Assembly: GCF_001577775.1 (NCBI RefSeq)
Contig: NZ_CP010835.1
Span: forward strand, 248,001 to 312,000
Source of the DNA: Pyrococcus kukulkanii
GTDB taxonomy: Archaea; Methanobacteriota_B; Thermococci; Thermococcales; Thermococcaceae
Length of the DNA: 64,000 nucleotides
Direction of reading: 5' to 3'
Shown here: positions 3,307 through 22,919 of the stretch, piece by piece
Layout: each line of letters opens with the position of its first letter
Numbering within the stretch: the first letter of the stretch is position 1
Position numbers and translations under genes: made by a program
Notes under the pieces: generated by a model
Told to the model about the DNA's origin: nothing
What the model saw: only the letters and a program-made list of their open reading frames with translations
Databases searched by the model: none

Positions 3307-5181
3307 ATGAAGAACGCTCTTGAAAGGCTTGAAAATCTTCTTGAGAAAGAGCAGTTTGAGAAAATCAAGGAGATAGACAACCCTTATCTTCACGAGTTCT
3401 TGGCGGAATGGATCGAGTGGCTTCAGCCAAGCAAAGTCTTTGTCTGTACTGATTCACCCGAAGATGAAGAATATGTCCGCTGGAAAGCCCTCTATTATGG
3501 AGAGGAAAAGATGCTTGAAATGCCCCGACATACCGTCCATTACGACAACTACTATGACCAAGCAAGAGACAAAGCAAACACTAAGCTCTTGGTTCCTAAA
3601 GGAGTTACATTACCATTCCTTAACACGATGGATAGAGAGGAAGGGCTCAGAGAAATCAGGGAGATAATGAAAGGGATAATGAGAGGCAAAGAACTGTTTA
3701 TATGCTTCTTCGTGCTCGGTCCAAAGAATTCGGTCTTTACAATTCCCGCAGTTCAGTTAACAGACTCAGCTTACGTTGCTCACTCTGAATTCCTGCTGTA
3801 CAGGAAGGGCTATGAAGAGTTCGTGAGGATGGGACCAACGAGGAACTTCTTAAAGTTCGTTCACTCAGCTGGAGAGCTTGATGAGAGAAAGACAAGTAAA
3901 AACCTTGACAAGAGGAGGATATACATAGACCTAGTTGATGAAACAGTATATTCAGCAAACACCCAGTATGGTGGGAACACCATAGGCTTGAAAAAGTTAG
4001 CATTTAGACTTACAATTCAAAGGGCAGTCAGGGAAGGATGGCTAAGCGAGCACATGTTCCTGATGAGGGTGAACGGCCCGAACGGTAGAAAGACTTACTT
4101 CACAGGAGCTTATCCAAGCATGTGTGGAAAGACATCAACGGCAATGATACCTTGGGAGAACATAGTCGGTGACGATCTTGTCTTTATAAAGAATCTCGAT
4201 GGAAAGGCTAGGGCAGTAAACGTTGAAATTGGAGTCTTTGGAATAATAGAAGGAATAAATGAGAAAGATGATCCAATTATATGGAAAGTTCTCCACTCTC
4301 CAGTTGAGATAATATTCTCTAATGTTCTCGTTAAGGACGGAAAGCCTTACTGGAATGGAATGGGCATTCCAATACCTGATGAAGGCGAAAATCACAGCGG
4401 AAAATGGTGGCGTGGAAAGAAAGACAAAGAGGGTAAGGAGATACCGCCAAGCCACAAGAACGCAAGATTTACCGTTAGACTAGAAGCATTTCCGAACCTC
4501 GACAAGGAAGCCTTGGAGAATCCATGCGGAGTTGAGGTCGGCGGAATGATATTCGGCGGTAGGGATCCCGATACATGGCCGCCGGTTAGGGAGGCCTTCA
4601 ACTGGCAGCATGGAGTAATAACGATGGGAGCTTCGCTTGAGAGCGAGACTACAGCGGCAACCCTCGGCAAAGAGGGAGTTAGGGCCTTCAATCCAATGTC
4701 AATCCTTGACTTCTTGAGCGTCCACATAGGAGATTACATTAGGAACTACCTTGAGTTCGGAAGGAAGCTAAAGAAGACTCCAAAGATATTCGCGGTGAAC
4801 TATTTCCTCAGGGAAAACGGTCAATGGCTCAATGAAAAGCTTGACAAGGCAGTGTGGCTCAAGTGGATGGAGCTCAGGGTTCATGATGATGTTGGAGCTA
4901 TTGAAACCCCGATAGGGTACATTCCAAAATACGAGGATCTTAAGACTCTCTTTAAGCAAGTCCTCAACAAAGAGTATACCAAGGAGGATTACGAGAAACA
5001 GTTCAAGATTAGAATTCCAGAATTGCTAGCAAAGATAGACAGGATATGGAAGATCTATGAGCCAATAGATAACATTCCGGAGGAACTCTTTAAGGAGCTT
5101 GAAGCGGAAAAAGAGAGGTTAGTAAAGGCAAGAGAGAAATATGGGGATTACATAAGTCCTTTCACATTACTCAAGAGTTAA
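3307..5181 (+). CDS. pckG: Phosphoenolpyruvate carboxykinase (GTP)
   Basis: This 624-residue cytoplasmic enzyme interconverts oxaloacetate plus GTP with phosphoenolpyruvate, CO2 and GDP, linking the C4 pool to gluconeogenesis or, in Thermococcales, running in the carboxylating direction. The GTP-type P-loop with its active-site cysteine is visible as YPSMCGKTS (Cys273, Lys275). Length fits the GTP-dependent family. Downstream blocks such as NPCGVEVGGMIFGGRDPD and FNWQHGVITMGAS are characteristic. I choose the ATG at 3307 because GGGTGGG is six bases upstream; an in-frame GTG at 3298 is possible. The last 15 bases overlap the convergent membrane gene at 5167. Confidence 0.97.
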   Translation: MKNALERLENLLEKEQFEKIKEIDNPYLHEFLAEWIEWLQPSKVFVCTDSPEDEEYVRWKALYYGEEKMLEMPRHTVHYDNYYDQARDKANTKLLVPKGVTLPFLNTMDREEGLREIREIMKGIMRGKELFICFFVLGPKNSVFTIPAVQLTDSAYVAHSEFLLYRKGYEEFVRMGPTRNFLKFVHSAGELDERKTSKNLDKRRIYIDLVDETVYSANTQYGGNTIGLKKLAFRLTIQRAVREGWLSEHMFLMRVNGPNGRKTYFTGAYPSMCGKTSTAMIPWENIVGDDLVFIKNLDGKARAVNVEIGVFGIIEGINEKDDPIIWKVLHSPVEIIFSNVLVKDGKPYWNGMGIPIPDEGENHSGKWWRGKKDKEGKEIPPSHKNARFTVRLEAFPNLDKEALENPCGVEVGGMIFGGRDPDTWPPVREAFNWQHGVITMGASLESETTAATLGKEGVRAFNPMSILDFLSVHIGDYIRNYLEFGRKLKKTPKIFAVNYFLRENGQWLNEKLDKAVWLKWMELRVHDDVGAIETPIGYIPKYEDLKTLFKQVLNKEYTKEDYEKQFKIRIPELLAKIDRIWKIYEPIDNIPEELFKELEAEKERLVKAREKYGDYISPFTLLKS

Positions 5182-14135: not shown

Positions 14136-18149
<4,014 letters not shown>

Positions 18150-19085: not shown

Positions 19086-19262
19086 ATGGAGAGAAAGAAG
19101 GTTTACAGACTGCTCCTCGTTTTGGTTTTGATCCTTACCGTTGTATACACCTTAAGCATCCTGGGATACCTTCCCTACTTTCTAGCTTACTACATCGTGG
19201 TGTTCTTCATAGTCCTGTTCCTGGCCTTAAGGTGGCATGAGAGGCTTAGGGGCTGGAGGTAA
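19086..19262 (+). CDS. Small two-helix membrane protein
   Basis: A 58-residue ORF starts at the ATG two bases after the permease stop, with GGAGGTGGTGAG as ribosome binding site. It contains two hydrophobic helices (LLLVLVLILTVVYTLSILGY and FLAYYIVVFFIVLFLAL) between basic ends, ending RLRGWR. The tight spacing suggests co-transcription with the AEC permease. I do not recognise the family. Confidence 0.6.
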   Translation: MERKKVYRLLLVLVLILTVVYTLSILGYLPYFLAYYIVVFFIVLFLALRWHERLRGWR

Positions 19263-19264
19263 GA

Positions 19265-19396
19265 ATGTGCCGTTTCCGCTACCTGTTGCAGTGCAACAGG
19301 TGCGGTTGGCCTCGTACTCCCGTCCACATTGGGGCCACCGGCCACCTCAGACGGGAGGTCATGGGCCTTAAGGCCGAACGGAAACGGCCCACCTAG
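19265..19396 (+). ncRNA. GC-rich, highly folded RNA candidate (overlapping a 43-codon ORF)
   Basis: A sharply GC-rich island can fold into a closed multibranch structure. The outer stem is GCCGTTTCCG (19269-19278) with CGGAAACGGC (19379-19388). Inside are ACCTGTTGCA/TGCAACAGGT (19281-19301), CTCCCGTC/GACGGGAG (19317-19324 with 19350-19357) enclosing GGCC/GGCC, and the palindrome GGCCTTAAGGCC (19364-19375). GC-rich islands in AT-rich hyperthermophile genomes are usually structured RNAs. Against a pure RNA, an ATG at 19265 follows GGAGGT by four bases and opens a 43-codon ORF with a C-x2-C pair (CNRC) that ends just outside the outer stem. Either product, or both, is possible. Confidence 0.6.
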
Positions 19397-19648
19397 AGAG
19401 ATTACACTAAAACCTCAAAAAACTTACGGTCACAAAAACAACAAAATCAAAAAGACACCAACTAGAGAACAGCCTAAACTGCACAAACCTTTGTAGTTTT
19501 GTGCACTATACTTTCTTAAGCCAACACCTTAACGGAGAGCTGAGCTCGAGCGTTAAAGATTTCACTGTGGATTCTCTTAAGAGCTGCCTTGGGTAGTTTA
19601 AAACTTCGAAGATAACTTAACAGATTTCTTTCTGCTTTAAGGCTCTAA
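19397..19648. other. Decayed intergenic region with an imperfect hairpin and a possible coding remnant
   Basis: A stem TGCACAAA with TTTGTGCA lies at about 19478-19504. On the minus strand the frame ending at 19516 is open for about 41 codons without a start codon and reads like real protein (for example RSFKLPKAALKRIHSEIFNA), so it may be the tail of a lost gene. I cannot assign it. Confidence 0.3.
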
Positions 19649-20735
19649 CTATAGAGCTTTAGAAATGACTTCCCTTACAACTGGGTCAATTATTCTATAC
19701 CTTCCCTTCTCCTTCCTTATCCATCCCATCTTCTCGAGGTTCTTGAGTAGATTGGCGAGCCGTGAGTTTGGAACTTCTCCAGCTCTCACCTCAATATATT
19801 CCTTTATTAGTTTCCATCTGTCTAGGCCCAGGGATATTGCCTTAAGGATTAAGGAGTATCTTGGGCTCTTCTTTTCCAGCTCTTTTACCTCCCCCAGGAT
19901 CATTGCCTCTGCCTTCTTGAGCACTTTCTCCATAGCCTCTTCGAAGCTTTTAGTGTGAATGTAGCTGTAGCCGAATTCAACGAGCCAACCGGGGATTCCA
20001 TCAAGGAAGTTAACTGCTTTTTCTATTTCTTCTTCACTGATCTTTACTCCTGCTTCCTTAAATCCCCTCCTCAAGAACTCCTTAGACAAATCCCTCGAGA
20101 AGGGCTCAACTGTGATCTCCTCGTAAGCCCTTCCGTAAAGTGGGGAGTTGTAGTCACCAGTTCCCAGGAAATCGTGTAGCAAACCAACTTCTGAACCTGA
20201 GAGTATGAAGGAGAGGTTCTCAAGGTTGTCGTAGGCATATGCCACTAACGCTAGAAACTCTTTACCACCTCTCGCTCCGTAGAATCTCAGGTATTGAGCT
20301 TCATCTATTGCAATTACTGCCCCTATTTCATTAAGGCTCAGAAGTACATCGGTGAGATACGATTCTCTGCTCAACTTTATCTCTACTCCCGATACTTTAA
20401 CTCCCTCTATTCTTCCGAGGGTGTTTGCAAGCTCTCTCCTCCATTTGGGCTTTGTTGCATTTAAACTCCTCTCTATGGCCTTTTTTAATGAACTGCTGCT
20501 TATCCAGCCTCCCGACTCGAAGTAAAGCTCTCTTGCATCTATATAAATACCATTTAGTTCGTCTAGGGCAACCCTGAGGATCGACGATTTTCCAATTCTC
20601 CTGATCCCTAAAAGCAGAGTTAGTGGATATCTTTTAGTTGCCTTAATTAACTCTTCCAGCTCTTTCCCCTGTCAAACAACTCTTCTCTTCTTGTTTTTGG
20701 CCTTGGATCAAACAGTATGTAATGCCCCCGTAACC
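19649..20735 (-). pseudogene. Archaeal AAA ATPase (PF01637 type), frameshifted near the N-terminus
   Basis: The main frame carries Walker A LLLGIRRIGKSS, a Walker B-like GAVIAIDEAQYLRFYG, LSFILSGSEVGLLHD as sensor 1 and a C-terminal winged helix (VPNSRLANLLKNLEKMGWIR). These are the hallmarks of the archaeal STAND-like ATPases of unknown role. The N-terminal segment LFDPRPKTRREELFDR is in another frame, and the two join at the run of C at about 20665-20670 (one base missing relative to FDR-x-KELEEL). No good start codon precedes it. The remaining in-frame start would be a TTG at 20374, which removes Walker A, so the gene is probably dead unless the shift is a sequence error. Confidence 0.78.
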
Positions 20736-21590: not shown

Positions 21591-22919
21591 ATGTACGAGG
21601 TTACGTTTGAATTGGAGAATATTACTCCTCTTTTCATGCACGGTGCCGATCAGGGCACGGCAGAATTTCGAGCTGCCAGCGTGAAGGGAGTAATGAGATG
21701 GTGGTTCAGGGCCTTGGCTGGAAATTACTTTGGAGATAACATCCCTGGGCTGAAGAAAGCTGAGTGCAGAATTTTTGGGTGTGCGGGGAGTGGAGAGGCT
21801 AAGAGGAGTTCGGTTATTATTGAATGCTCGCACAGGACATCTAATAAGCAGGAAAAGCCGAAATCTGGATATGAGAGATATTTCTGGTTTTCTCAAATCG
21901 GCAAATTTGCGAAAGGTGCAATTCCTCGCGGAAGAGTATTAAAATTACGGCTTAAAAGCCATGATGAGGTAGCACTTAGGTTGGCTGTCCTTTCCTTGTG
22001 GCCAGCTCTCCACCTTGGAGGCTTTGGTTCTAGGGCTAGAAGACTTGGTGGTTCTTTATTCCCCGTTAGTGAACCCGAAGGAAATATTAAAATTGATATA
22101 AATTTTCTTCCGCCGGAAAATGGGAATATCGCTGGCTTTTATAGAGATATTTTAGGAAACAAACTGCTTTCAAAGTTTGAGGCTGCGCTTAAGGAGCTGG
22201 GATTTGATTTGGAGGAGGCTGATTTTGAGGGCTTACCAAAATATCCTGTGCTGAGTAGGAGGTATTCAGGAGTTTTTGTTGGGAAACTACATGATAGTGC
22301 TGACGAGGCAATATCTGAGGTTGGTGAGTGGTACCTTGGTGAGCACAGGAGGAACAAATTTGAAGGAGGTTTCAGATTCAAAGAGGCTGATAGGGGGCTT
22401 CTCTCTAGAATCTATAGGAAGTATAATGACATCCGGGAGAGCGGCAGAAGAAATGAGAATATAACAATTAGTGTCCCCGTAAGGAGAGAGTGGAGACCGT
22501 TTTTTGGACTTCCGATTCAGATGTATAAGGAGTTTTCATATGGTGAATTCGTTCAGCTAACTATTAATTATACTGGCTATAATAGCAATAGTAATAGCAA
22601 CATTAACAAAGTTAGTAGGCGGGCCTCGGGAGTATTACTCACAATAAATAAAGTTAGGCAACAAGGATTTACTAAATATTACCACGTAATTACCGTTTTT
22701 GCCTCTGAATATCTCCCTGAATACAGGGGATACATTGGGTATAATGGAGGTATAAAGAAAAGAGTACGCAGAGGATCAATACCTCTTGCTGGGGTACAAG
22801 GTTCAATACTACAGGATGGTATGATCCGGAGTAAGTATATTTCCTTCTTAAATGAGCTCTTTTCAAGTCTGCAGAAGGAATTCAAGCTCGTTTATGGCTC
22901 TTTGGAGGGATTAAAATGA
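21591..22919 (+). CDS. cmr1: Type III-B CRISPR effector subunit Cmr1 (Cas7 group RAMP)
   Basis: The 442-residue RAMP protein begins with a ferredoxin-like beta strand, FELENITPLFMHGADQGTAE, followed by FRAASVKGVMRWWFRAL, the signature of Cmr1, and a glycine-rich LHLGGFGSRARRLGGS loop typical of the RAMP G-rich motif. Cmr1 caps one end of the Cmr ribonucleoprotein and helps bind target RNA. It is the first gene of an eight-gene operon whose members overlap or abut; its stop overlaps the cmr2 start (AATGAA). Its codon use is more AT-rich than that of cmr2. Confidence 0.93.
   Translation: MYEVTFELENITPLFMHGADQGTAEFRAASVKGVMRWWFRALAGNYFGDNIPGLKKAECRIFGCAGSGEAKRSSVIIECSHRTSNKQEKPKSGYERYFWFSQIGKFAKGAIPRGRVLKLRLKSHDEVALRLAVLSLWPALHLGGFGSRARRLGGSLFPVSEPEGNIKIDINFLPPENGNIAGFYRDILGNKLLSKFEAALKELGFDLEEADFEGLPKYPVLSRRYSGVFVGKLHDSADEAISEVGEWYLGEHRRNKFEGGFRFKEADRGLLSRIYRKYNDIRESGRRNENITISVPVRREWRPFFGLPIQMYKEFSYGEFVQLTINYTGYNSNSNSNINKVSRRASGVLLTINKVRQQGFTKYYHVITVFASEYLPEYRGYIGYNGGIKKRVRRGSIPLAGVQGSILQDGMIRSKYISFLNELFSSLQKEFKLVYGSLEGLK

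Follow-up and report, generated by a model that had tools for sequence, protein, structure and literature searches.

Guide scaffolds or transposon ends without a nuclease gene occur in stand-alone omegaRNA loci and in TnpB-less miniature elements. IS607, ISXfa1 and ISFba1 have a serine TnpA, GG-containing ends and a G-rich target and make no target duplication, and in IS607 elements tnpB comes with an RNA at the right end that continues into the flank (PMC6188088, PMC10711439, PMC11061315). IS607 inserts into GG, prefers (G)GG and forms no duplications (PMC6188088), and the target motifs described for IS607 TnpBs are GGG for ISXfa1 (PMC10711439) and AGGAG or GAGGG for others (PMC11061315). The ISXfa1 reRNA has three stem-loops, and TnpB activity requires a pseudoknot in which an apical loop pairs with the five nucleotides flanking the guide (PMC10711439). 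In P. abyssi, the ncRNAs sRkB and sRkC were seen on Northern blots, bind L7Ae (Phok et al. 2011, PMC3124441) and start at BRE/TATA promoters (PMC3124441). Phok et al. thought the family P. abyssi-specific and suggested cis-regulation rather than a guide-RNA role; they noted a similarity to an orphan OrfB and that one of the P. abyssi loci forms the 3′ end of an OrfB gene, PAB1452 (PMC3124441).

The window analysed here is a stretch of 64,000 nucleotides of Pyrococcus kukulkanii DNA, and its minus strand at 19270–19474 is very probably a protein-less miniature IS607 transposon whose TnpB guide-RNA scaffold would be bound in trans by a TnpB made elsewhere. Neither IS607 elements nor TnpB guide RNAs nor miniature derivatives are new as kinds. 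Our literature search, which covered mostly open-access papers, found no description of a guide-RNA-only IS607 miniature family in Thermococcales, nor of the identity of sRkB and sRkC with such elements. The element is a dispersed repeat, with nine copies in its own 1.98-Mb genome and matches in 5 of 60 other genomes searched; plasmid and phage records gave no match. Alignment of the copies with their flanks gave sharp borders at 19270 (CCGTTTCC, plus strand) and 19474 (GAACAGCC). The unit of 205 bp comprises a 121-bp folded part and an 84-bp part, A-rich on the plus strand, which an earlier note on this DNA had left out; the span given there, 19265–19396, misses the real unit, whose sense is on the minus strand. 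The features are collected in Table 1. Two copies in the same genome, in opposite orientations (L004, G000:C1 501,041–501,161, and L007, 514,543–514,663), have one flank each in common with a single copy in G006/G008 (L018/L016), a pattern that reads as an inversion of ~13.5 kb by recombination between copies.

Table 1. Features of the miniature element and its immediate surroundings (window coordinates)
Feature	Coordinates	Strand	Basis
Whole element, 205-bp non-autonomous IS607 derivative; left end at 19474, right end at 19270	19270–19474	−	Same borders in >20 copies whose flanks are unrelated
Conserved A preceding the left end, first base of the native target AGGG	19475	−	
Left end GGCTGTTC, the same as in the autonomous parent	19467–19474	−	
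Left-end region, T-rich, ~84 nt, homologous to the parent's left end/tnpA promoter region	19391–19474	−	
Decayed BRE/TATA-like box CGTAAGTTTTTTGAGG (parent L079: CGTAAGTTTTAAATATT)	19413–19428	−	Sequence comparison
Omega/reRNA-like scaffold, hairpins 1–3, homologous to tnpB 3′ end plus right end	19270–19390	−	Model R1, covariation
Hairpin 1, GGGCCG/CGGCCU, near-invariant loop UUUCCGUU	19371–19390	−	
Pseudoknot 5′ arm UUUCC in the hairpin-1 loop (predicted)	19380–19384	−	Complementarity; PMC10711439
Hairpin 2; its internal loop, AUGA facing CGA, is K-turn-like	19308–19367	−	K-turn by analogy with sRkB (PMC3124441)
Hairpin 3, CGCACCUGUUGC/GCAACAGGUAGCG; parent's tnpB stop codon at the 3′ arm	19276–19305	−	
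Pseudoknot 3′ arm GGAAA at the right end (predicted)	19273–19277	−	
Right terminus CGG	19270–19272	−	
Predicted guide: CACATTCTTACCTCCAGCCC, the host DNA adjoining the right end	19250–19269	−	Inferred from position
43-codon ORF, chance frame	19265–19396	+	Comparison of copies
Upstream host gene of 58 aa, whose 3′ end accounts for the apparent RBS GGAGGT	19086–19262	+	

The parent came to light when TnpB loci were sought in congeneric genomes and the repeat was aligned to them. On the minus strand, the folded part matches the 3′ end of one tnpB gene together with a short stretch after its stop codon. A complete parent is present in a congener (G002, L079, 1418–3440, 2,023 bp), with the order left end GGCTGTTC, tnpA, tnpB and right end GGAAACGG. 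As in IS607, ISXfa1 and ISFba1, its TnpA is a serine transposase, of 209 aa, scoring 205.6 bits against NF033518 (IS607 transposase; cut-off 110), and its TnpB of 437 aa passes NF040570 (RNA-guided TnpB). The window element keeps both of these ends and ~84 nt of left-end DNA, but unlike a full IS607 element it has neither tnpA nor tnpB, and we call it a derivative because it has no tnpA of its own. Elements with the same ends form a size series of 2,023, 1,427, 328–366, 265–282, 205 and 119 bp. The 1,427-bp class is represented in the same genome by a tnpB-only copy with an intact-looking, matching TnpB (L076, minus strand 3375–4801), a candidate for the TnpB that would serve the miniature scaffolds in trans. 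The derivatives of 265–282 bp (L167, from the same genome, and L168, L169 and L170) have the same ends and remnants of the TnpB C-terminus, and so are intermediate between the tnpB-only and 205-bp classes. A cognate TnpA was not found in the genome of the window, whose TnpAs are only ~51% identical to the cognate one, suggesting that movement of the element may have stopped there; close TnpAs (~87%) are present in G006 and G008, near contig ends. Assignment to IS200/IS605, with its Y1 transposase, was considered and rejected: Y1_Tnp is absent from the window's genome and the parent carries a serine TnpA.

Unoccupied sites in relatives were recovered for five other insertions (L030, L008, L015, L013 and L017). 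The native target, read in transposon orientation, was A-GGG in all five, so that a GG-containing target without target-site duplication, as in IS607, was found at each of them; occupied sites have the form A/GG...GG/, with slashes at the element borders, and L017 has a mutated left end but an A-GGG native site all the same. These targets fit both the published insertion preference of IS607 and the TnpB target motifs. An A precedes the left end in 23 of the 24 insertions tabulated and in four further ones. The base after the right end is never G in the insertions listed. The A-GGG targets and the presence of one G fewer after insertion set the family apart from IS607 elements, as a strict GG crossover into GGG predicts five Gs and four (2 + 2) are seen. 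For the missing G, the predicted joint of a circular intermediate would be AAACGCTG if it held one G and AAACGGCTG if it held two. The one-G deficit is seen at the empty sites L113, L114, L116, L120 and L121. No empty site was recovered for the window copy: in both G006 and G003 the left flank aligns, and the right flank is absent (G003) or different (G006). The DNA concerned covers ~170 bp to the right of the element in window numbering (19475–19645).

Folding supports part of what had been noticed in the letters. The GC-rich island (60–62% GC against a background of 35–50%) and the 10-bp ‘outer stem’ CCGTTTCCG...CGGAAACGG with three hairpins inside it are both present. The plus strand at 19255–19410 folds at −70.9 kcal/mol (z = −4.55) and the minus strand at 19270–19391 at −63.7 kcal/mol (z = −3.99), with 0 of 200 shuffles as good in either case. 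The idea of a structured RNA was right in kind, as homologues with abundant compensatory changes were found and relatives are published transcripts (PMC3124441), but the sense strand is the opposite one. An RNA of the Hgc type, also proposed, was not borne out, since Rfam gave no structured-RNA family at either gathering or lenient thresholds, and HgcE scored only 15.1 bits (E = 1.3) in the lenient scan. HgcE and the other Hgc RNAs are likewise GC-rich RNAs of a Pyrococcus-type genome, but the window RNA has no Rfam match above threshold.

On the sense strand the fold consists of three hairpins, as it does in a P. abyssi relative and in the parent. It resembles the ISXfa1 reRNA (PMC10711439) in its three stem-loops and the motif GGG and, if the predicted pairing forms, in an apical-loop pseudoknot, and differs in lying on a tnpB-less transposon and in having a K-turn-like loop; the AUGA/CGA internal loop is conserved and is a candidate K-turn. 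By analogy, the outer stem of the earlier note is most likely the pseudoknot on the sense strand, formed by the hairpin-1 loop and the nucleotides beside the guide. The UUUCC/GGAAA pairing is kept in 96.6% of cells, but it varies so little that covariation speaks neither for nor against it. From 12 miniature copies and no other sequences we built a covariance model (R1), which finds the tnpB 3′ ends and right ends of the parents at full length (E = 8e-18 to 5e-16) and has hits in 29 of 94 Thermococcaceae genomes. Within the miniature set, both sides vary in 10 of 34 pairs, with 93.5% of cells paired. With parents and more distant relatives added, the figures are 25 of 37 pairs and 94.8% of cells, in an alignment (A4) fitted to the structure of the model, which favours pair counts; the covariation score in the alignment with these relatives was 0.438, against 0.207 when shuffled and at most 0.123 when slid. 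The region combines homology to the RNA region at the tnpB 3′ end with a covarying multi-stem structure, as an omega/reRNA does, and it keeps the same three-hairpin fold in miniatures and parents through extensive compensatory change.

These data bear on the strongest alternative, that the copies are transposon debris, mobilised for their DNA ends alone, with a fold that is a functionless relic of tnpB. This we consider rather unlikely. Many copies do have deletions within the fold (L005, L011, L020, L022 and L029), the 119-bp copies L032 and L033 have lost most of the fold and kept both ends, and of six related P. abyssi loci only two are transcribed (PMC3124441). However, compensatory changes within the miniatures, on the scale given above, are not expected of relics, and published relatives are transcribed (PMC3124441). 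Nor would the wholesale re-pairing of the miniature scaffold relative to the parent be expected if the DNA ends alone mattered.

The published relatives can be placed directly. Two P. abyssi elements, L080 (809889–810254, 366 bp) and L081 (1612988–1613345, 358 bp), coincide with sRkB (809887–810256) and sRkC (1612986–1613347), and R1 matches both at about 2e-15, demonstrating their homology to the scaffold. They have the same transposon ends as the window element and differ from it in their greater length and strong BRE/TATA boxes. Their promoters lie inside the element, and the RNAs run from the left to the right end and stop a few bases beyond it. From published 5′ ends and lengths (PMC3124441), we calculate that the 209–218-nt species of sRkB have 3′ ends 2–11 nt past the right end and that sRkC is similar; a guide RNA would be expected to stop at such a distance outside the transposon. 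A guide-RNA reading would unify these facts and explain two orphan P. abyssi ncRNAs as IS607 guide RNAs; the family is not P. abyssi-specific.

Given these transcripts, one may ask whether the RNA is instead domesticated, with a host role via L7Ae or in the regulation in cis of the gene that follows, a role proposed for sRkB in P. abyssi. Binding of L7Ae by sRkB and sRkC goes through K-turns, sRkB overlaps the start of PAB0571 (PMC3124441), and the conserved AUGA/CGA internal loop is present in the window element. In contrast, the copies sit beside unrelated flanks and share no neighbour gene, the parents carry the same fold at the tnpB 3′ end, and K-turns can belong to a guide-RNA scaffold. 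Domestication therefore appears improbable.

We return to the guide-RNA reading for an element with IS607 ends, both genes lost, a covarying scaffold retained and insertion at AGGG. What survived the loss of tnpA and tnpB includes the folded region that, in the parent, overlaps the tnpB 3′ end and continues beyond it; according to this model, that region would be an omega/reRNA scaffold. The transcript would run from left to right end and cross the right end, and adjacent host DNA would become the guide. TnpB made elsewhere in the genome would bind the scaffold in trans and cut the unoccupied copy of the site beside AGGG, which would favour retention or spread of the insertion, and an IS607 TnpA would move the element in trans. 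For the window copy we infer both transcription and guide function. Its BRE/TATA-like box, if active as a promoter, would start a transcript near 19391–19400; the box is decayed compared with that of the parent, which makes transcription of this copy uncertain. A search for the window guide beside AGGG in nine congeneric genomes found its own donor (ACGG) and no second close target, and guide matches with 2–3 mismatches in these genomes were only slightly above the reversed-pattern control.

More tentatively, and with a probability somewhat short of even, the miniatures may be a family of guide-RNA-only transposons, in which the flank of each new insertion supplies a further guide, widening the targets of one trans-acting TnpB genome-wide. 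Under this extension, a single base would tell the occupied from the empty site (ACGG where the element ends on the right, AGGG in the target), the scaffold would have diverged from the parent under selection for its trans role, and sRkB and sRkC would be expressed family members. The elements offer a natural test case, in genetically tractable hyperthermophiles, of whether protein-less transposons hijack TnpB made elsewhere, and also of how TnpB spares its own donor.

A classical MITE moved by a DDE transposase, suggested by the resemblance of CCGTTTCCG...CGGAAACGG to a TIR, has a negligible probability and is refuted by the true far edge at 19474 rather than 19391, by empty sites without target duplication and by the IS607 TnpA of the parent.

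A plus-strand gene for a small zinc-finger protein, or a dual-function RNA, is almost certainly not present either. The 43-codon frame, its CNRC motif and the nearby GGAGGT do exist, but their meaning as a gene and a ribosome-binding site is accidental. The ATG (19265–19267) is flanking DNA, five bases ahead of the repeat start at 19270, and GGAGGT is the Trp-Arg-stop terminus (GGC TGG AGG TAA) of the upstream gene. When 22 copies were translated in the ORF frame, the start codon was present in the window copy and in 0 of the 21 others; the ninth codon is TAG in most other copies, and the remainder are frameshifted or altered. With the ATG in the flank and the start codon missing from the 21 other copies compared, the ORF is best regarded as a chance frame. 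It has no match in Pfam, and the same comparison, in which a conserved open frame with a start codon was not found, gave no evidence for a dual function; both readings are refuted.

Three genes near the element can be mentioned in their own right. An archaeal ATPase gene lies at 19649–20374 (minus strand), and its match to Pfam ATPase_2 starts at profile position 96; the Walker A part seems to be missing, and the gene is possibly truncated. The ribonucleotide reductase gene at 14295–18149 (plus strand) is split by an intein that contains a LAGLIDADG endonuclease domain. Finally, a gene of the RAMP superfamily (PF03787) at 21591–22919 (plus strand) probably belongs to a CRISPR-Cas effector module.
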